From the IMG/VR virus record IMGVR_UViG_3300020196_000100, positions 1-39,843 of that record: a DNA stretch of 39,843 nucleotides; one strand, 5' to 3'. This DNA is from a virus. Shown here in pieces: positions 1 through 36,330 of the stretch. The notes beneath the pieces were generated by a model. That model was not told where the DNA came from and did not search any database. It saw only the letters and a list, made by a program, of their open reading frames with translations. The translations under genes were made by a program, and so were the position numbers. Each line of letters starts with the position of its first letter. The stretch's first letter is position 1.

Positions 1-193
1 ACGCATGACCGACTTCGTGACCCATGAGAAGATCATAAAGGTTGCCATCCATATCTTTCCAGACAGGACAGACTAGTGTGCGTGATTTCAGATCGAAATA
101 TGCGGTCTTGACTTTTTGGTGTGAGACCGTGATATTCTCAGTCGCCAAAAGTTTGGCGAGCATAGACTTGGAAGTTTGAATACTCATATTCAT
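1..193 (-). CDS. HEXXH metallopeptidase-like protein (5' part, cut by window edge)
   Basis: The first 64 codons of a gene run off the left edge. Translation gives a start MNMSIQTS, a stretch with CPVWKDMDGNLYDLL, and then MGHEVGHA, which contains the zinc-protease signature HEXXH (H-E-V-G-H). Proteins of this kind, annotated as peptidases, occur in marine T4-like phages; substrate and role are unknown. I chose the ATG at 193 because an AGGA lies about a dozen bases upstream; the ATG at 187 is an alternative. It follows the deformylase after a 68-base AT-rich gap in which I see no convincing promoter. The catalytic third ligand and the rest of the protein lie outside the window, so the family call is tentative. 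Confidence 0.6.
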   Translation of the reverse strand, partial: MNMSIQTSKSMLAKLLATENITVSHQKVKTAYFDLKSRTLVCPVWKDMDGNLYDLLMGHEVGHA

Positions 194-6693: not shown

Positions 6694-7242
6694 CTATAAT
6701 AATTCGATATCGTAATATGAAAATCTAAACGATGCATTGCTTGTAATAACACCTTCGGCATTTGATCCGACGTTAAACGAAAGTGATGACAAGTAAGTTG
6801 GAAAAATATCATGAAACTTAACACGAATTCTTGGATTGTTTTTGTTTGAATAAATTGTAAGAATTCCATCTGTATATACGGCAGGTCGACGATTATTCAT
6901 TAAACTCTGCATATAAGAAGACTTTGTTACTTTTGCTAAATCAACATATTCTTTAAAGTCGGTAGGAAATGTTGCAGCGCGAATCCAATTATGAATTTCT
7001 AACCAAGAACTTAACGTTTCATTTACAAGAAATGTTGTGCTAAAGGCATCATAAACTGCTTTTTCTCCTGGCACAAATAAATCAATAAATGGTGTAAAGC
7101 GTTGAATTTCAGTCAATGAAATTCCAGGAATAGATGCATCTTGACAAAAATATGTGACGTCAGGTAATCGATCAAAGATCATCTGAAACTTATGCGGTTG
7201 AAGAAAATCTGTATTAATTGGATTTCGTGTTAATGCTGTCAT
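6694..7242 (-). CDS. Tail completion protein, gp3-like (tube-fold)
   Basis: This 182-aa protein looks like a tail tube-family molecule. It has an N-terminal target segment (FQMIFDRLP), a conserved-looking turn ASIPGISLTEI, a GEKAVYD strand and the helix SSWLEIHNWIR. This resembles the layout of gp19-type tube proteins, although the gene is distinct from gp19 at 17244. In marine T4-like phages the gene between 23 and uvsY is, as I recall, annotated gp3, the tail tube terminator that caps the tube and sheath; T4 gp3 has a similar length (176 aa). The start overlaps the upstream 73-aa gene by 29 bases. A second tail-tube-like protein is the alternative. Confidence 0.55.
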   Translation of the reverse strand: MTALTRNPINTDFLQPHKFQMIFDRLPDVTYFCQDASIPGISLTEIQRFTPFIDLFVPGEKAVYDAFSTTFLVNETLSSWLEIHNWIRAATFPTDFKEYVDLAKVTKSSYMQSLMNNRRPAVYTDGILTIYSNKNNPRIRVKFHDIFPTYLSSLSFNVGSNAEGVITSNASFRFSYYDIELL

Positions 7243-8884: not shown

Positions 8885-11800
8885 TTAGGCTTTTGGAGCC
8901 GTTTTTGATATTGATTGAACATATCGACTCATAATATTATTTGTAATTTCTACTTCTGGTTCTTCATTAAGAGCGACTCTTTGAAGTTCCTTTACCTCAC
9001 TTTTCACTTGTACTTTAGTCGGGAAGTAGTTCTCGCGTAATACAGCGAGTTTTTCTTCATAATCACCTTCTGTGGTGAACTCCACACCCTCTGCGAGTGC
9101 CTTCATTTTCTCTGCTTGAACTGCTGTGAGTCCAGAGCAGAATGATTCTGTGACAATTGCTTTCTGAACAAAGTTAAGTTGCTCTTGAAGAGAAGCAATT
9201 GTTGCGGTCTGATCTGCAACATGTTTATGTACATTCTCTACATACTCAGCTGCTGATTCAAGTTCAGATGCAAGTGTTTCTGCAACATCAACTTTTTCTT
9301 CAGGAATCTCGATGTAGTGCTCTTGGAACAATGCACGTAAACCAGAGATAAAGTCTTCAGCGAGCTCAGCACGTAGACCTGTTTCGACAGCAACTTTATT
9401 CTCTTGCATCCATTGTTCAACAACATAGTTGAGATATTCATCAACTTGCTCTGTCAATTCGTCTTTAATTTCCTCATATGCCTGTCCTAGAACTTGGTCA
9501 TTTGAAGCAACAAGCTCTTCTAGAATTTTTTCGACACGAGATGATACAGCTGCTTCGAAGATAAGTGTGGCTTTGGCGCGGAATTCTTCAGAGAGTGATT
9601 CGCCATTAAACAGCGCATCTACATCCTCTCTCATATTGCCTTGGAACTGCTTGACCGTTTCTTTAATTGCAATCATTCTTTGCTCACGAATTTGCTCTTC
9701 GGTGAGTTCAGCTGTTTTATCTTCAGCTTCTTCATCATCTTGCATATTTTGATCAGATTGCTGAGGCATTTGCTGAGGCTTTTGCTGAGGCATTTGCTGA
9801 GGCTTTTGCTGAGGCTTTTGCTGAGGCTTGAGCCGACCTTGTGGGTTCTTTCCACTTTCGCTGAGATTTTCATTCTCATTGAATGTCTCATTTGCTTCCT
9901 CTTGATTTTCTATGTCGTTCATATTCGAATCCTCAGTGCTTTCATTTGTTGTTTTACCACGAAATAAATTTAATGCCCCTTTGGCTAAATCATAAACCGC
10001 TTGTCCAGCGGCGCCAGCTTTGGCAGCGTCTCCAAAATCTTGACCAGTTAATGCGCCGCCAATACCTGTTCGGAGACCAGTACGACCAGCCCTTTGTGCA
10101 AAATCAATAAATGCATTTCCAAGACCATATTTATCATTTCGTTGATTTGAACTTGTAGTTTGATTTGCGCTAGAGGAATCTGCAGAAGCACCTCCACCAG
10201 AGGAAGAATCGGATCTAGATCTACCTCTTCTATCAATTGGATCTGAATGCCAATCCTCTAAACTGTTATATCTACCTTGAGGTCTTGCAGCGCCATCATT
10301 TCCCTGTTGACCTGCTGTTTGCTCTGGTGGACCTGATCCTGCAGGATCAGGTCGACCTGATCCTGTACCTGAACCGCCAGCACCAGTGTTGGTAGCGCCA
10401 GCACCAGTGTTGTCAGCACCAAAGTTCAGACCCTGCTGAACTAACGTTAGCATTCTATTAGCATCAGCACCAAGATTTGTACTAGCAGCTGAACCACCAT
10501 CACTCTGCGCCTGGTACGCGACTGGTTGTGTAACTGGTCCTGAACCACCAGCTGGTTTTGAACCACCAGCTGGTTTTGAACCACTGCCATCAGATCCACC
10601 AGCACCCATTCTATTAACAGCAGCAAGAGCTTGCTTAAAATCAGCATCTAATTTTAAATTGCTTTCTTTAGTTTTACCAAGGCGTTCTCTCATTTTATAT
10701 GCATAATCTGCGCCAACATTAGGATCAACTCCGAAACCTGCAGCTAGTTGTGCACCAGATCTACGAATTGATGCTCCTGTTTTGCCATAGCGATCTTCAT
10801 CACTCATTTCAGATGGTGCTTGAAATTTGGTTCCTGTCCAGAATTTGCCTTTATTTGCACCAGTTCCCCTTTCGCCATACTTCGGTGTTGCCACTGGTGC
10901 TGCCGCTGATGTTGCTGTCGTTGCAGCAGCGTTTGTTGCAGCAGCATTTAATGTTGCTGTCGTTGCAGCAGCATCTGTTTTAGCGCGTCGACGACGTGGA
11001 CCACCCCTTTCAAATAAGTTTACAACGTATTCAGCTTGATCCTCTGATAATGAATTAATAAACTGATCTAGTTGCTCTTCATTTAATGTTGACAGTTGTT
11101 GAATGATATCTGTTTCTTCAGCAGCCATTCTATTTACTCCTCTTAATCGATCTTTGTTAGCGTTAATATCTCTCATGAAATTTCTAACTGAGTCTGGATC
11201 TTCATCGTCGTTGTCTTGATTTCTATTTTGTGCCACGCGTGTTTGTATATTCTCAGAATCATCTTGAACATTTTGATTAGATTGCTGAGGCTTTTCTCGT
11301 TTTTGTGCAGCTTGATTAAGTGCTGTTGAAGCGACGCTACCAGCAAGATCTGATCCTGTTCTTTGACCAACTGCTCCACCTGCTGCACTTGTAATATTTC
11401 CAACAACTGCATCTCTCACACTGCCGCCTTGCAGTTTAGCAGAAGCAACATCGCGTGCAAGATTACCTACAAGCTCTGACCCTGTTGCTTTTGCAATACT
11501 GCCACCAATTCCTCCAGTCACTCCACCAATCGCACCAGATTTGGCTCCTGATTTTAAGCCTGCTGAAAAACTACCGCCTGACAATTTACTTTGAACACCA
11601 CCCTGAATTGCTCCCGATATGCTTTGTTGAACAACATTTTTCGCCAAGGTTTTTAAACCTGCTTTCAAACCTGCTTTTGCGACACCACTAGCAGCGGCAC
11701 CACCAGCGCCACCAGCTGCTGCACCAGCAAAACCTAATTTTCCAGCAATTGCACCACCAATTCCAGGTAAAAGAAATCCAGCCGCAATTGGTGCTAATTT

Positions 11801-12565
11801 CTTTAAAATTTTTCCAATACTTCTTTTCTTTTTAAGGACCCATTGTCCACGTTTAAATTTCCATTTCTTACCCTTGGGTGGAGGTTCTGTTGGTTTTGGA
11901 GGGCGTCCTGTATTCGGAGCTGGTGTCGGAGCTGGTGTCGGAGCTGGTGCAGAGGCGTTAACATTACCATCAGATCCACCACCAATACTTGAATTTTCAT
12001 TATCACGTGCTGCTAATTCAGCAGGATCAGTTTCTTCATCTAAAGATGCAAGTTGAATTGTGTATACTATTTCCTCTTCATTTAATCTTTCAAAAAATTT
12101 AACTAGTTCTTCATCGGATTGTGATTCAATAAAATCTTCTAGTTGATCTGCGTCCTCTTCCAACTGCATGAATTCATCTTCAGTAAATTCTCGTTGTTTA
12201 AAATCATTAATAATCGCTTCAATGAGTAATTCTTTTGCTCCATCTTCACCATATTGTTCAATTAAATTTTCCATTAAATTATTTGATTTCTCAGGCTCTT
12301 CAGATTCAGAATTTTCCTCTGACTCTTCATCCTCGGTTGGAAGTTTCTTAATTTCTTCTGCTGGAGCTCCAGGACGACCTGGTTTTGGTGTTGCATTTAT
12401 TGATTGTGCACTCATTAAACCTGGAGACACAACATCTCCAGTCATCATTTCACCACCTAAATCATTGTGTTGTATAGCAGCCATGCGAATAGGCTCTTTG
12501 CCAGCATTCGCCAATGACGCTGCAAGAATTTCAGCTGCCGACTCGTGTAATGTTTTATGAGCCAT
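8885..12565 (-). CDS. gp22: gp22 prohead scaffold with a very large internal insertion
   Basis: The two ends look like scaffold gp22 of marine T4-like phages. Residues 1-95 hold a start LHESAAEILAASL and a NATPKPGRPGAPAEE stretch; residues about 955-1226 are a charged helical coiled-coil scaffold (HVADQTATIASLQEQLNFV, then SFCSGLTAVQAEKM). The total of 1226 aa compares with 269 aa in T4. The insert (about 95-950) holds two acidic helical modules (141-167 and 490-520) that resemble each other, Pro-Ala repeats (205-218), a basic Trp/Lys patch (231-248), a glycine-zipper, membrane-like region (258-420), Ala/Thr- and Gly/Ser-rich linkers, a second Gly/Ala-rich region (813-870) and a KPQQ/MPQQ repeat (913-936). 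Possible L-x-E protease sites include LHE (6-8), LSE (901-903) and LSE (991-993). An exact late promoter precedes it. The ends are assigned with confidence; the insert's role is unknown. Confidence 0.85.
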   Translation of the reverse strand: MAHKTLHESAAEILAASLANAGKEPIRMAAIQHNDLGGEMMTGDVVSPGLMSAQSINATPKPGRPGAPAEEIKKLPTEDEESEENSESEEPEKSNNLMENLIEQYGEDGAKELLIEAIINDFKQREFTEDEFMQLEEDADQLEDFIESQSDEELVKFFERLNEEEIVYTIQLASLDEETDPAELAARDNENSSIGGGSDGNVNASAPAPTPAPTPAPNTGRPPKPTEPPPKGKKWKFKRGQWVLKKKRSIGKILKKLAPIAAGFLLPGIGGAIAGKLGFAGAAAGGAGGAAASGVAKAGLKAGLKTLAKNVVQQSISGAIQGGVQSKLSGGSFSAGLKSGAKSGAIGGVTGGIGGSIAKATGSELVGNLARDVASAKLQGGSVRDAVVGNITSAAGGAVGQRTGSDLAGSVASTALNQAAQKREKPQQSNQNVQDDSENIQTRVAQNRNQDNDDEDPDSVRNFMRDINANKDRLRGVNRMAAEETDIIQQLSTLNEEQLDQFINSLSEDQAEYVVNLFERGGPRRRRAKTDAAATTATLNAAATNAAATTATSAAAPVATPKYGERGTGANKGKFWTGTKFQAPSEMSDEDRYGKTGASIRRSGAQLAAGFGVDPNVGADYAYKMRERLGKTKESNLKLDADFKQALAAVNRMGAGGSDGSGSKPAGGSKPAGGSGPVTQPVAYQAQSDGGSAASTNLGADANRMLTLVQQGLNFGADNTGAGATNTGAGGSGTGSGRPDPAGSGPPEQTAGQQGNDGAARPQGRYNSLEDWHSDPIDRRGRSRSDSSSGGGASADSSSANQTTSSNQRNDKYGLGNAFIDFAQRAGRTGLRTGIGGALTGQDFGDAAKAGAAGQAVYDLAKGALNLFRGKTTNESTEDSNMNDIENQEEANETFNENENLSESGKNPQGRLKPQQKPQQKPQQMPQQKPQQMPQQSDQNMQDDEEAEDKTAELTEEQIREQRMIAIKETVKQFQGNMREDVDALFNGESLSEEFRAKATLIFEAAVSSRVEKILEELVASNDQVLGQAYEEIKDELTEQVDEYLNYVVEQWMQENKVAVETGLRAELAEDFISGLRALFQEHYIEIPEEKVDVAETLASELESAAEYVENVHKHVADQTATIASLQEQLNFVQKAIVTESFCSGLTAVQAEKMKALAEGVEFTTEGDYEEKLAVLRENYFPTKVQVKSEVKELQRVALNEEPEVEITNNIMSRYVQSISKTAPKA

Positions 12566-12590: not shown

Positions 12591-12598
12591 TATTTATA
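12591..12598 (-). promoter_or_regulatory. Late promoter TATAAATA before gp22
   Basis: An exact match to the T4 late (gp55-dependent) octamer TATAAATA lies on the minus strand in the 37-base gap between gp21 and gp22, with its end 26 bases before the gp22 ATG. It would drive scaffold and capsid expression. Confidence 0.8.
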
Positions 12599-12602
12599 AA
12601 AG

Positions 12603-13247
12603 TTATAATCTCGATAAAAAGTTTTCAAATATTTTCAAGGAGATATCGTCTAATTGCTTCTGTTTTGCAGTCTTTATTTGATTATAATATTCATTTACAT
12701 TAAATTCCTTCACAAAACCATTGTCCCAGACCCACTCTTTACCTTCCATAATGCCTTGAACAAAAGCACCTGGAGCTGATGGATCAGCTACGATATCAGC
12801 TGCAGTTGCAAGGTAAAAGTCTGGTTGTACGATATTGACTCCATCGATCATTTTAAGAGAGCCCATACCACGCGAGGATACACCAAGAGTAGCACCAGCC
12901 TCCATAAGATTCTTAGCAATTTTACCCATTGGAGTTTCAAGAACTTTTGCTTTACCCTCGAATACATTACCATTGCGCGAAATATTGGTAATCATATGAG
13001 AGACGCGCTCTAGATTAATGGTTGGTGATTCTGGATGTCCAAGTTCACCAAAAGCTCGATTCTTATCGACGTATTCTCTCATGTAACGATTGACTTCGTT
13101 TTCAAGTACCGCAACAGGATATGAACGTCCGTTTCGATTCTTTGTTTCGGCGACAAGGAATGGACCTTGAATGTATAAAGTCTTAACACCGTTTTTCTCT
13201 TCAGTGATGACTTTAATTTCTTCGACTGTTTCTGTAATAAGTTTCAT
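12603..13247 (-). CDS. gp21: gp21 prohead maturation protease
   Basis: This serine protease (herpes-assemblin-like fold, T4 gp21/U9 family) sits inside the prohead and cleaves scaffold and capsid proteins after (L/I)-x-E. The catalytic histidine lies in GELGHPES (His71) and the nucleophile in LGVSSRG (Ser124 or Ser125). The front segment FLVAETKNRNGRSYP (residues 30-44) is also characteristic. At 214 aa it matches T4 gp21 (212 aa). It sits directly before gp22 and gp23, its main substrates. Confidence 0.95.
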   Translation of the reverse strand: MKLITETVEEIKVITEEKNGVKTLYIQGPFLVAETKNRNGRSYPVAVLENEVNRYMREYVDKNRAFGELGHPESPTINLERVSHMITNISRNGNVFEGKAKVLETPMGKIAKNLMEAGATLGVSSRGMGSLKMIDGVNIVQPDFYLATAADIVADPSAPGAFVQGIMEGKEWVWDNGFVKEFNVNEYYNQIKTAKQKQLDDISLKIFENFLSRL

Positions 13248-15059: not shown

Positions 15060-15241
15060 TATGCCTCTGTTTGTGCCTCTGTATTCATTTCTGTTGGTGC
15101 AGCAATGAAGTTCGAAGCAACCTCAACTTTTTTTACCTCTAAAGCATCAGCGACTTTTGCTGATAGAGAACTATTAAATGCCTCTACAGCCTCATCTCTG
15201 TTTCCTGAAAGAATCGCGTTTATAAATGATTCACTGTTCAT
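15059..15241 (-). CDS. gp67: gp67-like prohead core protein
   Basis: This small protein is 60 aa from the ATG at 15241. The segment SESFINAILSGNRDEAVEAF, then SLSAKVADALEVKKVEVASN, matches the short prohead core protein found after the portal gene in marine T4-like phages (gp67 in T4 is also a small acidic core protein). I chose ATG 15241 because GGAGAAA lies just upstream; the in-frame TTG at 15253 would destroy that spacing. An exact late promoter sits immediately ahead. It would be incorporated into the scaffold core and cleaved by gp21. Confidence 0.82.
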   Translation of the reverse strand: MNSESFINAILSGNRDEAVEAFNSSLSAKVADALEVKKVEVASNFIAAPTEMNTEAQTEA

Positions 15242-15253
15242 ATATTTCTCCAA

Positions 15254-15261
15254 TATTTATA
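15254..15261 (-). promoter_or_regulatory. Late promoter TATAAATA before gp67
   Basis: An exact TATAAATA octamer lies on the minus strand, between the portal stop (15268) and the gp67 start (15241). With T4-like spacing, transcription would begin about six bases after it, leaving a leader of only seven or so bases that barely includes the GGAG ribosome site. Confidence 0.65.
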
Positions 15262-17243: not shown

Positions 17244-17756
17244 TTAACCAACATTAACTTCTTGTGAAGTCCAATATTGATACTGAAATGTTACTGCATA
17301 TTCTTCGATTGCATCATTTTGATCCCAGCTAATGTCAATTGCTGAAAGATCCACAGGAAACATATCAATGAATGTATAACTCTTAATAATATCGCCCTGT
17401 TTCCCAAACTGATAAACATCAGCATCAAAAGAGTATTGAGATAAAAATGCTTCTGAAAGATTGCTCTCGTGACCAACGATTCGTGACATCCACTCTTCAA
17501 GCTGATTACGAATAATAAAATCCTCATCATTTAATACTTGAATTGTCCATTCAGGAAATACTCTATTTCCTGCCATCTTAATGCTTCTACCAAAATATGG
17601 AATTTCAATTGTTCCTATTGTAGAGCCAGGAAGCTGTGCTGTTTTTGCAGTAAAGGTAAGTTTTTCATCAAACACTGGAATGTTGACTTCAAACAGATTA
17701 GGACGTGCACCGTCAAATGGAAAATTACTTTTAAAGTCTGTAATATTAAAAGGCAT
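17244..17756 (-). CDS. gp19: gp19 tail tube protein
   Basis: This is the inner tail tube monomer, stacked in hexameric rings inside the sheath. At 170 aa it matches T4 gp19 (163 aa). The order of segments agrees with the family: GARPNLFEVNIP near the start, TAKTAQLPGSTIG, MAGNRVFPEWTIQVLND (like GDRTFDDWTVTVMND in T4), and a C-terminal EEYAVTFQYQYW strand. An AGGAG lies just upstream of the ATG, and a late-promoter-like AATAAATA overlaps the gp18 stop. Confidence 0.96.
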   Translation of the reverse strand: MPFNITDFKSNFPFDGARPNLFEVNIPVFDEKLTFTAKTAQLPGSTIGTIEIPYFGRSIKMAGNRVFPEWTIQVLNDEDFIIRNQLEEWMSRIVGHESNLSEAFLSQYSFDADVYQFGKQGDIIKSYTFIDMFPVDLSAIDISWDQNDAIEEYAVTFQYQYWTSQEVNVG

Positions 17757-29582: not shown

Positions 29583-32500
29583 TTATTGATTTGGCCAAGA
29601 GATCGTAATCGATCCTGTTCCAGCACCAGTTCCTACTGAAATTGTACTTGTTGCGCCTTGTGATACTGATTTTTGCATTGTAGAAGAAGAATTGGTTGTG
29701 CTAGCTGCGCTTCCAGAACCTCCTGGTTGACCAGAAGTTGCTCCAGTTCCTGCAGAGCCAGCATTACCTGCTGATCCATTTGAGCCAGCTGCACCATTAC
29801 CGCCAGCGTTTCCTGGTTGCCCTGCTGCTCCTGGTTGACCAGAGGTTGCTCCAGTTCCTGCAGCGCCAGTATTTCCAGCAGCACCATTTGCTCCTGCTGA
29901 TCCTGGTTGTCCAGCTGCTCCTGAAGTTGCTCCAGATCCTGCAGCACCAGTATTTCCAGCAGTTCCGTTAGCACCAGCTGCTCCTGGTTGTCCAGCTGCT
30001 CCTGAAGTTGCTCCAGATCCTGCGCCTCCGATAGTGCCTGGTGCACCATTGGCACCTGCTGATCCAGGTTGTCCTGCAGCACCATTTGTTGCTCCGCTGC
30101 CACCTGCGCCTGTATTGCCTGCGACACCATTGGCACCCGCACTACCTGGTTGTCCTGCTGATCCTGATGTTGCACCAGAACCGCCTGCACCAGTATTACC
30201 TGCTGTGCCATTGGCACCTGCTGATCCAGGTTGTCCTGCAGCACCATTATTTGCTCCAGATCCAGCATTTCCTGGTTGCCCTGCTGCTCCAGCATTTCCA
30301 TTGGCTCCAGCATTTCCTGGTTGTCCAGCATTACCACCAGCACCGTTTGTGGCACCACTTCCACCACCACCAGTATTTCCTCCAGCTCCTGCTGATCCTG
30401 GTTGACCAGCAGATCCATTAGAACCAGCAGCTGCGAGATCGGTGCTGGCTGGTCCTCCTCCACCGCCAGCACCGGATCCTGGATTTCCTCCAGCACCTCC
30501 TGCCGAACCTGGTTGTCCGTCCGCAGTATGAGTTATTGGGATCCAAGGACTATAAGTCTCTGACATTCCAGCACCACCACCGCCGCCACCGCCGCCGCCA
30601 CCGCCACCACCTGGTGTTCCTGCATTTCCTGGTGATCCTGGATTACCTGCCGAACCACCACTACCACCATTACCAGCTGCGCCACCATTGCCATTATTAC
30701 CTGTATTTCCTGGCTGACCTGTTGCACCAACATTACCTGGATTTCCAGCATTACCTTGCGCACCACCAGCTCCACCAGCACCATTAGTGCCTGGATTGCC
30801 TGAATTGCCTTGAGCACCTGGATTGCCAGCAGAACCACCAGCTCCACCTGCACCGCCAGCTCCATTATTTCCTGGTTGCCCTGCATTACCTAGTGCACCT
30901 GGATTACCTGCCGAGCCACCAGCTCCACCAGCACCTCCAGCACCATTGTTTCCTGGTTGACCAGTATTTCCTTGAGCACCTGGATTGCCAGCAGAACCTC
31001 CTGCGCCTCCAGCTCCACCAGCACCATTAGTGCCTGGATTGCCTGAATTGCCTTGAGCACCTGGATTGCCAGCAGAACCACCAGCTCCACCTGCACCTCC
31101 CGCTCCGTTGTTTCCTGGTTGTCCAGTATTTCCTTGTGCGCCTGAATTTCCTGCTGCACCACCCGCACCACCTGCACCGCCAGATCCACCATTTCCAGCA
31201 TCACCATTTGTTCCTGGTTGACCTGCTGTTCCAGCGTTTCCTGGTTGACCAATATTACCTGCTGCTCCAGCAGCACCAGCGTTACCGCCAGAACCGCCTG
31301 GAAGAGAAACCCCTGTAAATGTAACAGATGAACCTGCTACAAAAGTTGTTGCATTTCCTGCATTACCTGCGGAGCCAGCAGATCCTGCTGCTCCAGGATT
31401 TCCGGCATTGCCTGGTTGACCTGATGTGCCAGGATTTGCTCCAGTACCAGCATTACCTGCTGCGCCTGTTGATCCTGGTGTTCCAGAGTTGCCATTTGCC
31501 CCCGCAGCTCCAGGTTGTCCTGCAGATCCTGGTGTTGCTCCTGTTCCTGCCGCTCCTGTATTGCCAGCAGCACCTGCTGAACCTGCATTTCCTGGTTGTC
31601 CTGCTGAACCAGATGTAGCGCCTGATCCTGCAGCACCAGTATTACCTGCTGTGCCATTGGCACCTGCTGATCCTGGTTGACCCGCAGCCCCCGAAGTTGC
31701 TCCAGATCCCGCAGCGCCAGTATTTCCTGCCGCGCCATTTGCACCTGCAGCTCCAGGTTGTCCCGCTTGACCAATATTAGCGCCAGAACCAGCAGCACCA
31801 GTATTACCTGCTGCTCCAGCAGATCCTGCATTTCCTGGTTGTCCGCTCGCGCCAGGATTTGCTCCAGAACCACCACCGCCAGTATTTCCAGCATTTCCGT
31901 TTGCACCAGCATTTCCTGGCTGGCCAGCAGATCCTGGTTGTCCACCAGTTGCACCTGAGCCTCCGCTTCCAGGATTACCTGCTGCACCTGTGTTTCCTGC
32001 TGCACCTGCATTACCACCAGAACCAGGATTTCCTGATCCACCTGATCCAGCATTTCCACCGTTACCAGCATTACCGCCATAATTAAGTAAAGTTCCTGGA
32101 TATCCTGGTGATGCAGGATTACCGCCACCTTGACCATAAGTCCCACTTGCACCATAATTTGGATATCCGATATTTCCTGTAGGATTGCCATTTGTTCCTG
32201 TGTTTCCATTATTTCCTGGTGTGGTTGAACTTGGTTGTGTAAATACTGACCAGCCACCTTGTCCACCACCACCTGCATTGCCGCCGTTTGCACCAGCACC
32301 ACCTGCACCACCATTTCCGTTGCTACCAGCATTACCAGTCGCACCAGCATTTCCTGCGTTTCCTGGATTGCCAGCATTTCCTCTAGCACCGCCTGGACCT
32401 CCAGCACCACCGTTTCCGTTAGTTCCAGGATTTCCTGAGTTTCCTGTAGCACCTGAATTGCCAGCAGAGCCTCCTGCGCCACCAGCACCACCGTTTCCAT

Positions 32501-33095
32501 TTGAACCAGGTTGTCCAGTGTTGCCTTGTGCTCCAGGGTTGCCAGCATTTCCTCTGGCGCCACCAGCACCGCCAGCTCCGTTGTTTCCTGGCTGTCCTGT
32601 GTTGCCCTGCGCGCCTGGATTACCTGCTGAACCTCCAGCACCACCTGCTCCGCCAGCACCATTTGAGCCAGGTTGACCTGTGTTACCTTGAGCACCTGAA
32701 TTGCCAGCAGAGCCTCCTGCGCCACCAGCACCACCGTTTCCATTTGAACCAGGTTGTCCAGTGTTTCCTATTGCTCCGGAATTGCCAGCAGAACCCCCTG
32801 CACCACCAGCACCACCTGCGCCATTATTACCTGCATTTCCTGGCTGACCTGTAGCACCTTGTGCTCCTGGATTACCAGCATTACCAGCAGTACCACCTGT
32901 ACCAGCAGAACCACCATTACCTCCGACGCCATTATTTCCAGGATTACCTGCAGTACCAGCATTACCTGTACCACCTGTACCAGAAATTGTAATTCGTCGA
33001 ACGCCAAATGGAATGTACCATGTTCCGTTCGTTGAAAATGTAACGGAACCTGCTTTTACTCTCGTTTTTCGAAGAGTCGTCGCTGCTAATGGCAT
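29583..33095 (-). CDS. Giant glycine-rich virion protein, candidate polyglycine-II adhesin
   Basis: This is a 1170-aa protein. Residues 1-42 form a short beta domain (AGSVTFSTNGTWYIPFGVRR). Nearly all the rest is Gly/Ala/Asn/Pro/Gln repeats such as GNTGQPGNNGAGGAGGA. Three non-repeat islands interrupt it, near residues 282-340 (with WSVFTQPSS and Tyr/Pro-rich), 583-600 (FVAGSSVTFTGVSLPGG) and 840-858 (polyglycine, then SPWIPITHTADG). The end is a Ser/Thr beta segment finishing SISWPNQ-like. The repeats do not follow a strict collagen G-x-y triplet pattern, and GG pairs are frequent; this suits packed polyglycine II helices, known from the gp38-type receptor-binding tip of phage S16. A tail-fibre tip or adhesin is the best guess, supported by flanking fibre genes. 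Confidence 0.7.
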   Translation of the reverse strand: MPLAATTLRKTRVKAGSVTFSTNGTWYIPFGVRRITISGTGGTGNAGTAGNPGNNGVGGNGGSAGTGGTAGNAGNPGAQGATGQPGNAGNNGAGGAGGAGGSAGNSGAIGNTGQPGSNGNGGAGGAGGSAGNSGAQGNTGQPGSNGAGGAGGAGGSAGNPGAQGNTGQPGNNGAGGAGGARGNAGNPGAQGNTGQPGSNGNGGAGGAGGSAGNSGATGNSGNPGTNGNGGAGGPGGARGNAGNPGNAGNAGATGNAGSNGNGGAGGAGANGGNAGGGGQGGWSVFTQPSSTTPGNNGNTGTNGNPTGNIGYPNYGASGTYGQGGGNPASPGYPGTLLNYGGNAGNGGNAGSGGSGNPGSGGNAGAAGNTGAAGNPGSGGSGATGGQPGSAGQPGNAGANGNAGNTGGGGSGANPGASGQPGNAGSAGAAGNTGAAGSGANIGQAGQPGAAGANGAAGNTGAAGSGATSGAAGQPGSAGANGTAGNTGAAGSGATSGSAGQPGNAGSAGAAGNTGAAGTGATPGSAGQPGAAGANGNSGTPGSTGAAGNAGTGANPGTSGQPGNAGNPGAAGSAGSAGNAGNATTFVAGSSVTFTGVSLPGGSGGNAGAAGAAGNIGQPGNAGTAGQPGTNGDAGNGGSGGAGGAGGAAGNSGAQGNTGQPGNNGAGGAGGAGGSAGNPGAQGNSGNPGTNGAGGAGGAGGSAGNPGAQGNTGQPGNNGAGGAGGAGGSAGNPGALGNAGQPGNNGAGGAGGAGGSAGNPGAQGNSGNPGTNGAGGAGGAQGNAGNPGNVGATGQPGNTGNNGNGGAAGNGGSGGSAGNPGSPGNAGTPGGGGGGGGGGGGGAGMSETYSPWIPITHTADGQPGSAGGAGGNPGSGAGGGGGPASTDLAAAGSNGSAGQPGSAGAGGNTGGGGSGATNGAGGNAGQPGNAGANGNAGAAGQPGNAGSGANNGAAGQPGSAGANGTAGNTGAGGSGATSGSAGQPGSAGANGVAGNTGAGGSGATNGAAGQPGSAGANGAPGTIGGAGSGATSGAAGQPGAAGANGTAGNTGAAGSGATSGAAGQPGSAGANGAAGNTGAAGTGATSGQPGAAGQPGNAGGNGAAGSNGSAGNAGSAGTGATSGQPGGSGSAASTTNSSSTMQKSVSQGATSTISVGTGAGTGSITISWPNQ
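29700..32970 (-). repeat. Glycine-rich codon repeat tract
   Basis: About 3.3 kb of imperfect short repeats encode the Gly/Ala/Asn/Pro modules of the giant adhesin. Units of roughly 48-60 bases (for example those encoding GNTGQPGNNGAGGAGG) recur many times with small differences, so slippage or recombination between copies could change length. The biased composition opens long spurious frames on both strands. Confidence 0.85.
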
Positions 33096-33474: not shown

Positions 33475-33879
33475 CTAACGTCCAAGATTGGCTAGGGCAT
33501 GCGAAGCGTAATACGTTTCGCCGCCATCAAATGTCATCAATGTAATTACATCAGCAAAATCTGGTTTTGATGAGAGTATTGCAACTTCACCAAAAGACCA
33601 GAAAACGTTTTCAGGAAATACAACCTTACGATTTCCCATGTTATCTTGCTTTAATATTAATGTGCAAGAATAACTTTTATCTGCTTCTGGCAAATTATCG
33701 AACGAAATATTTATAATATTTTTTCTCAGTGTAATATGAAAAACATTTGATTCTCGTAGATCAAGAATCTCAATATTATTTACCGCATTTATTTTAGTAA
33801 TCTTCTCGCGATACGCTTTTAATACGCCTTCAAATGTATCGAGACGATTTTTGCGAAGTGAAACTACATTTCCGTCCAT
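33475..33879 (-). CDS. Stand-alone fibre C-terminal domain protein
   Basis: This 134-aa protein has a second half (residues 72-134) that matches the last 60-odd residues of the neighbouring 811-aa collagen-like fibre: here TLILKQDNMGNRKVVF, FWSFGEVAILSS, DVITLMTFDGGETYYASHAL; there [49 protein letters not shown]. It is therefore a paralogue of the fibre's terminal domain without the collagen shaft. It may be a separate capping or tip subunit, or a spare tip exchanged by recombination. A GGAGG lies before the next gene downstream. Confidence 0.78.
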   Translation of the reverse strand: MDGNVVSLRKNRLDTFEGVLKAYREKITKINAVNNIEILDLRESNVFHITLRKNIINISFDNLPEADKSYSCTLILKQDNMGNRKVVFPENVFWSFGEVAILSSKPDFADVITLMTFDGGETYYASHALANLGR

Positions 33880-33894
33880 TTTATTTTCCTCTTA

Positions 33895-36330
33895 TCAGTA
33901 AGATACGTTAGCCATAGCATGTGCGCCAAAGTATGTAGCACCATTATTAACAGTAAACAAAGTAATCACATCAAGTTTGCTGGCGATTCCAGAAGACAAT
34001 GTAGGAACTTCGGCATTCGACCAGTATACAGTATTTGCAAATGTAACAACATTTGCTGCAGTTCCAGGCTGTCTTAGGATTAGCGTTAATGGGCTAGACT
34101 TACCTGAAGCAGCAACGCTTGTAAATGTAATTGCTACAGTTGATGCTTGAAGCGTGAGATCAAAAATATTATTTCCAGAAGCATCAGCTGTAAATGTCGA
34201 ACCAGTAATTGTTGCACTGTTTGTGCGTTCAATATATCCATACAATTCAACACCACCAGAAGCCATTGGTCCTTGTGGACCTTGAGGACCTTGTGGTCCA
34301 GTCACACCCTGTGGTCCTTGCGGTCCCTGTGGTCCTTGTGGTCCAGTCACACCCTGTGGTCCTTGTGGTCCCTGTGGACCTTGTGGACCAGTTACACCTT
34401 GCGGTCCTTGTGGTCCCTGAGGACCAGTGACGCCTTGTGGTCCTTGTGGACCTTGTGGACCAGTAACACCTTGCGGTCCTTGTGGTCCCTGAGGACCAGT
34501 GTCGCCTTGTGGTCCTTGTGGTCCAGGAACGTTCGAAACACCAGCTGGTCCTTGTGGCCCTTGAGGTCCAGTAACACCTTGCGGTCCTTGTGGTCCCTGA
34601 GGACCAGTGTCGCCTTGTGGTCCTTGTGGTCCAGGAACGTTCGAAACACCAGCTGGTCCTTGTGGACCTTGAGGTCCAGTATCACCTTGTGAACCTTGTG
34701 GACCTTGAGGTCCAGTCACACCTTGTGGACCTTGCGGACCTTGTGGACCAGTCACACCTTGTGGACCTTGTGGACCAGTCACACCTTGTGGACCTTGTGG
34801 ACCTTGCGGACCCTGTGGACCTGTTGGTCCTGGGACGTTAGACACACCGCTTGGTCCCTGTGGACCTTGAGGTCCAGTATCACCTTGTGGACCTTGTGGT
34901 CCTTGCGGACCAGTCACACCTTGTGGACCCTGTGGTCCTTGCGGACCTTGTGGTCCCTGTGGTCCTTGAGGACCTGCATCACCCTTGTCACCAGTTCTTG
35001 CAAATGTAATAATAACATTTGTTGAATCTGGGAATGTTGTTACGCCAGTTGTGTGCGCAACAGGAACATAGAAGTAACTTGAAGTGTGATCATGCAATCC
35101 ATTAATACTAAAGAATGCAAACTCATTAATGTTTGCACTATTTGCTAACTTAAATGTTCCTTTGATTGTTGAAGTAGAGTCGTCAATTGTTTGTAGATAA
35201 TTAAATACATTTGCTGAATTTTGATCAATGAAATCAATATACAATGTTGTTGCTGTCGAGAAAGATGCGCTATTGAATTTTAAATTTGATGATCCAGGAT
35301 CTGAGTTTGCTGTGTTTGTTAGATACACAAACTCAAATGTTGCGCCACCGAATTCGCCAGTGTCACCCTTTGCTCCTTGAGGACCTTGCGGTCCTTGTGG
35401 ACCCTGTGGTCCTTGTGGACCTTGTGGACCCTGTGGACCAGTAACACCAATCACACCTTGTGGACCTTGCGGACCTTGTGGTCCTTGCGGTCCAGTTAAA
35501 CCAATTGGACCTTGTGGTCCTGTTGGTCCAGGAACATTTGAGACACCAGATGGTCCTTGAGGACCTTGTGGACCTTCAACTCCTTGTGGTCCTTGTGGAC
35601 CAATAACACCTTGTGGTCCTTGTGGTCCTTGTGGACCCTGTGGACCTTGTGGACCAGGAACATTCGAAACACCACTTGGTCCTTGTGGACCTTCTGGACC
35701 CTGTGGACCTGTTGGTCCTGGAACATTCGAAACACCACTTGGTCCTTGTGGACCTTGCGGTCCTTGTGGTCCTGTTGGTCCAGGAACATTTGAAACGCCA
35801 GCTGGTCCTTGTGGACCCTCAACTCCTTGTGGTCCCTGAGGACCTTGTGGACCCTGTGGACCAGTCACACCTTGCGGACCTTGTGGTCCTTGAGGTCCTG
35901 TTACTCCTTGTGGACCCTGCGGTCCTTGTGGTCCTTGAGGACCAGTGTCGCCAATGACACCTTGTGAACCCTGCGGACCTTGTGGACCTTGTGGTCCAGT
36001 TACACCTTGAGGACCTTGTGGACCAGTGATACCCTGTGGTCCTTGTGGACCAATGTCGCCAGTCACACCTTGTGGTCCTTGTGGACCAGTTACACCTTGC
36101 GGACCTTGTGCACCAGTTACACCCTGCGGTCCTTGTGGACCTTGTGGACCAGTTGCACCTTGTGATCCTTGAGAACCAGTCACACCTTGCGGACCTTGAG
36201 GTCCTTGTGGACCAACACCCTGTGGACCTTGTGGACCCTGCGGTCCTTGTGGACCTTGCGGACCTTGTGGACCGCGTGCAATTTGCAAAACATTTACAGA
36301 TTGGCTTTGCTGTTTAACTGTAACTGCCAT
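33895..36330 (-). CDS. Collagen-like tail fibre
   Basis: This is an 811-aa fibre. A 19-residue start ([19 protein letters not shown]) leads into a first collagen-like shaft of [10 protein letters not shown] triplets to about residue 330, a globular insert (about 331-445, [18 protein letters not shown] onward), a second shaft to about 688 and a C-terminal beta domain of about 123 residues. The segment GVSNVPG occurs seven times and breaks the Gly-x-y register at regular places, probably making flexible hinges. The C-terminal domain probably nucleates trimerisation. A TAATG overlap couples it to the upstream 110-aa virion protein. Confidence 0.9.
34260..36285 (-). repeat. Collagen-triplet DNA repeats
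   Basis: Two tracts (about 34265-34990 and 35370-36280) consist of 9- and 18-base units such as GGTCCACAAGGT and its variants, encoding GPQ, GPQGVT and GPQGDT triplets. Copies are near-identical and match the tract at 39667-39843, so they can recombine within and between the two fibre genes. Confidence 0.85.

Follow-up and report, generated by a model that had tools for sequence, protein, structure and literature searches.

A lengthened T4-type gp22 with cargo-like segments, a candidate nested scaffold polyprotein

The window, as the whole stretch of DNA analysed here is called (39,843 nucleotides, IMG/VR virus record IMGVR_UViG_3300020196_000100), carries on its minus strand a gene for an unusually long gp22, the head scaffolding protein of T4-type phages. 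The frame begins with ATG and is read without internal stop (Table 1). Residues 978–1218 of the product matched the Pfam family T4_CASP (PF25623) with an E value of 5.9e-60 and 203.3 bits, the curated cut-off being 27, and residues 888–1222 matched the head scaffolding family phrog_237 (E 8e-70). With the gene order gp21, gp22, gp23, the protein is a gp22 by domain and by position. Its residues 1–95 are similar to the N-terminal arm of the short gp22s in related phages (M.KTL.ESAAEIL...). Between this arm and the T4-type scaffold domain lie about 850 extra residues, arranged as acidic linker 1, a segment referred to below as cargo 1, acidic linker 2 and a further segment, cargo 2. The 19-residue stretch of highest hydrophobicity begins at residue 257: LAPIAAGFLLPGIGGAIAG.

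A sequence-only reading of this DNA had described a single insert between two T4-like ends of marine type. The extra residues and their rough boundaries proved real: the arm and the scaffold domain enclose residues 96–962, for which 50,697 phage records yielded no match at E values up to 1. The protein does contain the Pro-Ala, GGSKPA and KPQQ repeats and the glycine-zipper block (11306–11794, residues 258–420). The T4-like character of the ends was borne out by the arm and by PF25623. The marine label was not, as the identical or closest contigs come from freshwater metagenomes of Lake Tanganyika (IMG 3300020198, 3300020190, 3300020193 and 3300021091, so described in the available part of PMC8245535). 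Nor is the insert single: two site-poor segments are parted by acidic linkers, and the gp22 of L018 (L numbers designate loci) has three linker–cargo units.

Table 1. Features of the gp22 region in the window. Linker 2 as drawn overlaps the end of predicted fragment 1; the arrow marks a predicted cut.
Feature	Position	Strand	Basis
gp22, long form, 1226 amino acids (130.0 kDa)	8885..12565	minus	frame, PF25623, phrog_237
N-terminal arm, residues 1–95, common to short gp22s of related phages	12281..12565	minus	
Acidic linker 1, residues 96–177, six strict [LI]xE motifs, the last being LDE177	12035..12280	minus	
Predicted fragment 1 (cargo 1), residues 178–496, 32.0 kDa, pI 10.0	11078..12034	minus	
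Acidic linker 2, residues 485–519, motifs LNE496, LSE508 and LFE519	11009..11113	minus	
Predicted fragment 2 (cargo 2), residues 520–903, 38.9 kDa, pI 8.0	9857..11008	minus	
TGAGG, Shine-Dalgarno-like, 8 nt upstream of internal ATG	9931..9935	minus	
Predicted internal translation product from Met882, 345 amino acids, scaffold without insert	8885..9922	minus	
Scaffold domain PF25623, residues 978–1218	8912..9634	minus	
TATAAATA, 32–33 nt upstream of gp22 ATG in 9/9 homologues	12591..12598	minus	
gp21 prohead protease	12603..13247	minus	phrog_207, E 7.7e-78
gp23 major capsid protein, predicted gp21 site NLWE↓AA	7526..8866	minus	

That an assembly error or frameshift joined two genes is excluded for all practical purposes. 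The protein was 100% identical in three other assemblies (L001 and L003 with identical DNA, L002 with identical protein and DNA that is not identical), long relatives exist at 44–73% identity, and nothing was found that speaks for an artefact. Long-type gp22 was carried by 20 contigs including the window, gathered by a gp21 scan (best 80 among the matches listed), a census of open reading frames and scans with linker and cargo alignments; L017 (partial, 134 amino acids) was classed as long type from its linker 1 and its gp21 alone. The gene is complete in 13 contigs, with lengths of 1112, 1146, 1172, 1196, 1200, 1202, four times 1226, 1231, 1235 and 1388 amino acids, and is cut by contig ends in the other seven.

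In the gp21 scan and the frame census, a gp21 at least 90% identical went with a long gp22, and a gp21 73–79% identical with a gp22 of 360–416 amino acids. On a gp21 tree of 69 rows, which excludes rows with incomplete or identical gp21 or with incomplete gp22, the eight long forms made up one clade (support 100/99, present in 100% of 200 bootstrap trees). This clade adjoins 11 sisters with short gp22s of 360–416 amino acids, and gp22 in the 61 rows outside the clade, sisters included, measured 250–461. A second sample gave 327–460 amino acids in 68 complete gp22s of 78 examined, the 10 incomplete ones being left out, and the gp22s of nine isolates measured 265–410. Outside the clade the gp22s measured span 250–461 amino acids, compared with 1226 in the window, and the long form is confined to one clade in what was sampled. 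Isolates with a capsid protein at least 60% identical to that of the window were sought and none was found, the best reaching 55.7% among the matches listed; no gp22 scaffold of this kind appeared among the open-licence papers listed. Assignment of a host from named contigs of metagenome-assembled genomes was abandoned, as the nine gp21 relatives there were only 52–60% identical.

T4 gp21 cleaves after L/I-X-E, as stated in the available part of PMC9026906, and such motifs were found between the parts of gp22, as would be expected of a gp21 substrate. The cut site expected in the capsid protein, NLWE↓(A/T) or a similar site with LWE, was seen in 13/13 capsid proteins listed for the clade and its sisters. 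In the gp22 of the window, strict [LI]xE motifs crowd both linkers and the scaffold domain, with none between residues 177 and 496 or between 519 and 903. For motif counts, seven gp22 homologues were split by net charge only, so that the boundaries are not circular, and expectations were taken from shuffles; the set omits L036 (a near copy of L020), L017 (too short) and homologues found later. The acidic non-scaffold stretches held 101 [LI].E against 52.5 expected, while controls in the same stretches gave 74 against 52.6 for the mirror motif E.[LI], 21 against 20.7 for [LI].D and 48 against 42.8 for [VMF].E. In the scaffold domain the motif was seen 67 times and its mirror 45 times, with 30.7 expected for either. 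On these counts the predicted cut motif is commoner in the linkers than composition explains, and somewhat commoner than helix periodicity would account for.

The predicted cut before cargo 1 stands out. LNEEYLVE↓FLKKI opens this segment in 10/14 homologues reaching this spot (L016, L018, L020, L021, L036, L099, L100, L101, L102 and L105), with SLNE↓GFLSKVG or SLNE↓GFFKKIG in L019 and L109 and SLDE↓ETDPAEL in the window and L004; several of the 14 are near copies. The sequence-only reading had proposed that the insert might be a cargo freed by gp21 and ejected with the DNA. The layout of gp21-type sites agrees with release: predicted cuts at LDE177 and LNE496 flank fragment 1 with its glycine-zipper block, and predicted cuts at LFE519 and LSE903 flank fragment 2. 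Overall, that interpretation is partly supported. Avoidance of [LI]xE within the cargo was also considered and rejected: hand-drawn boundaries gave 3 motifs against 10.4 expected, but had been drawn partly by the sites, and segments drawn by charge show no avoidance.

The segments between the linkers are rich in Gly and Ala and mostly basic. The predicted N-terminus of freed cargo 1 is a cationic amphipathic helix followed by a glycine-zipper stretch; in the window, fragment 1 contains the helix from residue 245 and the zipper block at 258–420. In 6/8 homologues the helical moment is 0.70–0.77, and 0–1 of 5000 shuffles was equally high. The combination of cationic helix and glycine zipper suggests that cargo 1 may be membrane-active. 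Comparison of the insert with PHROGs and Pfam gave only weak matches on biased sequence (phrog_794, tape measure, E 0.0003; phrog_5115, E 0.00066; phrog_18972, E 0.0038), and comparison with PDB sequences gave a best E value of 0.072 for the insert and 0.057 for the scaffold domain. With hhalign, the cationic helix and the FIPGVG stretch aligned to tape-measure-like proteins with a probability of 97.1 over 35 columns, a match that is short, of biased composition and counts for little. From this weak resemblance we infer that cargo 1 might be ejected and act on a membrane.

Separate proteins in other phages (L116–L148), of 245–737 amino acids when complete, were also observed. Most have IASLNPxTGLEEF, then FFKKIGKALKK and PGVG; these figures cover 24 of 32 non-gp22 loci, L149–L157 lying outside the examined set. 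In the two that were tested the C-terminus matches tape-measure families, and the L130 protein had a match to 1 of 50,697 phage records.

The question of how so much mass would fit into the core prompted a scan of in-frame ATGs, which revealed a candidate internal start. TGAGG-N8-ATG stands in frame just upstream of the scaffold domain (Met882 in the window) in 12/12 homologues reaching this region, and is the sole such site in each of the 12 proteins. The residues encoded there vary among homologues (EDSN, EESN, EGQT, EELH). Among nine Met columns, defined by Met in at least 8/9 homologues, a Shine-Dalgarno-like sequence was present in all nine sequences at Met882 and M978 only. The capsid gene start of the window is also preceded by TGAGGA, whereas in 12 short gp22s no internal ATG among those listed follows a TGAGG. 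In 5/6 sequences tested there is little structure around the start, with 1–13% of codon positions less structured. The predicted short product would have 285–345 amino acids in homologues with a complete C-terminus, 288 in most. The case rests on the combination of these points, and on that footing the internal start is probably used. The concern of the sequence-only reading over core mass would then be met, because the conserved start would yield scaffold without the insert. As for transcription, TATAAATA, the T4 late promoter motif, is absent inside gp22 in 9/9 homologues and one CTATAAAT lies within the gp22 of L004; other promoter types were not searched for.

Ratios of non-synonymous to synonymous substitution (dN/dS) in cargo 1 were 0.21, 0.34, 0.36 and 0.36 in four pairs, compared with 0.35, 0.54 and 0.62 in cargo 2 and 0.19, 0.22 and 0.30 in the scaffold; purifying selection acts on most segment pairs tested. 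Between the window and L004, identity is 96.7% for gp21 and 97.4% for the capsid protein, as against 55.5% for P0004, 51.8% for P0005 and 51% for cargo 2, and dS (the synonymous term) ranges from 0.09 to 0.77 among gp22 segments. This unevenness points to a swapping of core and cargo segments among related phages. When linker 2 was used as a profile, it matched linker 1 of L016 (12.4 bits) and L105 (11.2 bits), and also an acidic module that the short gp22s of L049 (11.7 bits) and L038 (9.1 bits) contain; among 1900 shuffled segments the best score was 9.2 and the next 5.3 bits. No linker 1 match above 5 bits was obtained in the window, L004, L019 or L109. The profile matches lend weak support to an origin of the long form by repetition of a cleavable module that was already present, the copies being separated by new sequence.

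Taken together, the layout is best read as that of a nested scaffold polyprotein, two fragments of which would be released by gp21 within the prohead, a reading to which we give nearly even chances. Translation from residue 1 would give the long form with arm, linkers, both cargo segments and scaffold domain, and translation from the conserved internal ATG would give a plain scaffold. The long and short forms would co-assemble through their common C-terminal scaffold domain into the prohead core, around which the gp23 shell would form. Cutting behind the [LI]xE motifs of linkers and scaffold domain, gp21 would then break these parts down into small peptides in vivo. The site-poor segments, of about 32 and 39 kDa in the window, would survive intact, remain in the head with the DNA and probably be delivered together with it. 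The cationic helix and hydrophobic glycine-zipper stretch of cargo 1 could enter the host membrane. A more tentative and somewhat doubtful extension is that of a programmed polyprotein, in which two starts would give plain or cargo-loaded scaffold and the protease would free two or three injected cargos, at least one of them membrane-active.

Several observations weigh against the nested reading. The basic stretches held 5 [LI].E in 2751 residues against 5.4 expected, and are poor in the motif because they contain little Glu, so that avoidance beyond composition is unsupported. The linker excess is partly helix periodicity, the mirror motif being up 1.41-fold where [LI].E is up 1.92-fold. A strict site (LIPE, FKIKE) occurs in or at the end of cargo 2 in L019, L020, L036, L100, L101, L102 and L109, and the relaxed site MRE627 lies within cargo 2 of the window. 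The spacer from cut to helix is 67 residues in the window (63–67 across the window and L004), and there the helix is less amphipathic (0.51 in the window, with 265 of 5000 shuffles equally high; 0.61 in L004, with 102 of 5000). A structure model of linker and cargo 1 reached a mean pLDDT of only 41.1, and dN/dS of cargo 1 between the window and L004 is 0.76. It is unlikely, in our view, that the insert only enlarges or reshapes the core to suit a larger head and is then fully degraded and expelled, as ordinary scaffold is. T4 gp22 and other core proteins are indeed cut to fragments that mostly leave the head, according to the accessible text of PMC9026906; P0004, another core gene, is enlarged in the same clade; and the insert is largely low-complexity and variable, cargo 2 being 29–51% identical in two of three pairs. 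Nevertheless, the two segments of more than 300 residues without strict [LI]xE in the window would escape shredding by gp21, and capsid protein and gp21 are near-constant between the window and L004 while the cargo differs. The same divergence, faster than that of the capsid genes, would suit a partner of the DNA, basic fragments that neutralise or condense it or act on host defences after ejection, with no role at a membrane. The internal proteins of T4 are basic and poorly conserved between phages, and are ejected after release by gp21 (PMC9026906, as far as available); in a comparison of basicity fragment 1 has a pI of 10.0. For fragment 2, however, the pI is 8.0 and it is nearly neutral (net +1 in the window, −1 in L004), so that the word basic suits cargo 1 better; a hydrophobic glycine-zipper stretch with an amphipathic helix is also unexpected in a DNA-binding protein. 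We regard this role as rather improbable.

It is quite conceivable, if on balance doubtful, that the internal ATG is unused, that TGAGG and the Met persist through shared descent or because the protein sequence requires them, and that all gp22 is long. In each of nine sequences, synonymous shuffles produced TGAGG at the internal Met in 6–18% of cases. Near copies make up several of the 12 sequences with TGAGG-N8-ATG, and a conserved GAG is nothing unusual, since 5/32 invariant Glu columns of the scaffold domain use this codon in all nine. In L004 the region around the start is structured (−9.5 kcal/mol). M978 (KGNM) also has a Shine-Dalgarno-like sequence in 9/9 homologues, as does the corresponding Met of several short gp22s; it was not built on as a second internal start, as the sequence there follows from a Lys/Arg/Gln-Gly pair. 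Against disuse stand the persistence of TGAGG-N8 while the residues before the Met vary, and the low structure in most sequences tested.

A nested scaffold polyprotein would share features with several known systems. With T4-type gp22s (PF25623, phrog_237) it has in common the C-terminal scaffold domain, the placement between gp21 and gp23 and [LI]xE motifs throughout the domain; the others measured 250–461 amino acids, whereas this clade has 1112–1388 with cargo-like segments. Tape-measure-like proteins (e.g. L117, L130 and L133) resemble cargo 1 in the cationic helix and FIPGVG stretch but are encoded by separate genes. Nu3 of phage lambda is made from an internal start. In the lambda C/Nu3 and P2 protease–scaffold genes the scaffold is likewise encoded within a longer gene (PMC8508860, in the part available), and here too an in-frame internal ATG with a Shine-Dalgarno-like sequence precedes the scaffold part. 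Their longer product, however, is the protease; here it has cargo-like segments, and gp21 is separate.

According to the accessible portions of PMC9026906 and PMC5694885, the core of T4 contains 576 copies of gp22 along with gp21 and internal proteins, and the latter, like Alt, are ejected once gp21 has released them. IPI-III and Alt enter the core and are freed by a cut after L/I-X-E (PMC9026906, same portion), as is predicted here. They are made from separate genes with a short targeting propeptide, whereas the present segments lie within gp22 in all 13 complete genes. The giant phages phiKZ and SPN3US have a gp21-like protease, head propeptides of more than 100 residues and an ejected protein bolus (available parts of PMC5694885 and PMC7411985), but their ejection proteins are encoded by separate genes. 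A gp22 counterpart in giant phages was unconfirmed according to what is available of the 2017 paper (PMC5694885); the corresponding part of the 2020 paper (PMC7411985) proposes one in SPN3US.

Other features of the window were noted. Another candidate core protein, P0004 (13258–14337), is likewise longer in the clade with long gp22, at 302–478 amino acids compared with 99–115 in complete forms from short-gp22 relatives. A predicted gp21 cut (LSE↓A, LDE↓A or LDE↓G) stands just ahead of its strongly basic tail, and short forms have IAE↓A at residue 14 in 3/4 looked at. TATAAATA occurs three times on the minus strand (12591–12598, 15254–15261 and 33708–33715) and nowhere on the plus strand. After the portal gene lies a frame of 59 amino acids (15062–15241, minus strand), shorter than the 80-amino-acid threshold of the list of open reading frames and presumably a counterpart of gp67, which it resembles by position. 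Two minus-strand genes contain collagen-type repeats (PF01391), 29583–33095 (1170 amino acids, E 2.4e-36) and 33895–36330 (811 amino acids, E 1.2e-75), and their products are perhaps fibres. The tail-tube family phrog_45 is represented by two minus-strand genes (6694–7242 and 17244–17756), and one of the two lies downstream of the capsid gene.

Scaffolds are regarded as disposable. If the gp22 of this clade bears cargo, many protein copies would be loaded per head at a ratio set by the start codons. With 576 copies of gp22, a number borrowed from T4, and all of them long, the two fragments of the window (70.9 kDa together) would amount to about 41 MDa, near the more than 40 MDa of ejection proteins in SPN3US (from the available part of PMC7411985). 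The short-gp22 sister phages offer a natural comparison. If the nested reading is true, cargo would be loaded as part of capsid assembly itself, under the control of two start codons rather than of targeting tags, a natural counterpart of engineered capsid-targeting fusions.

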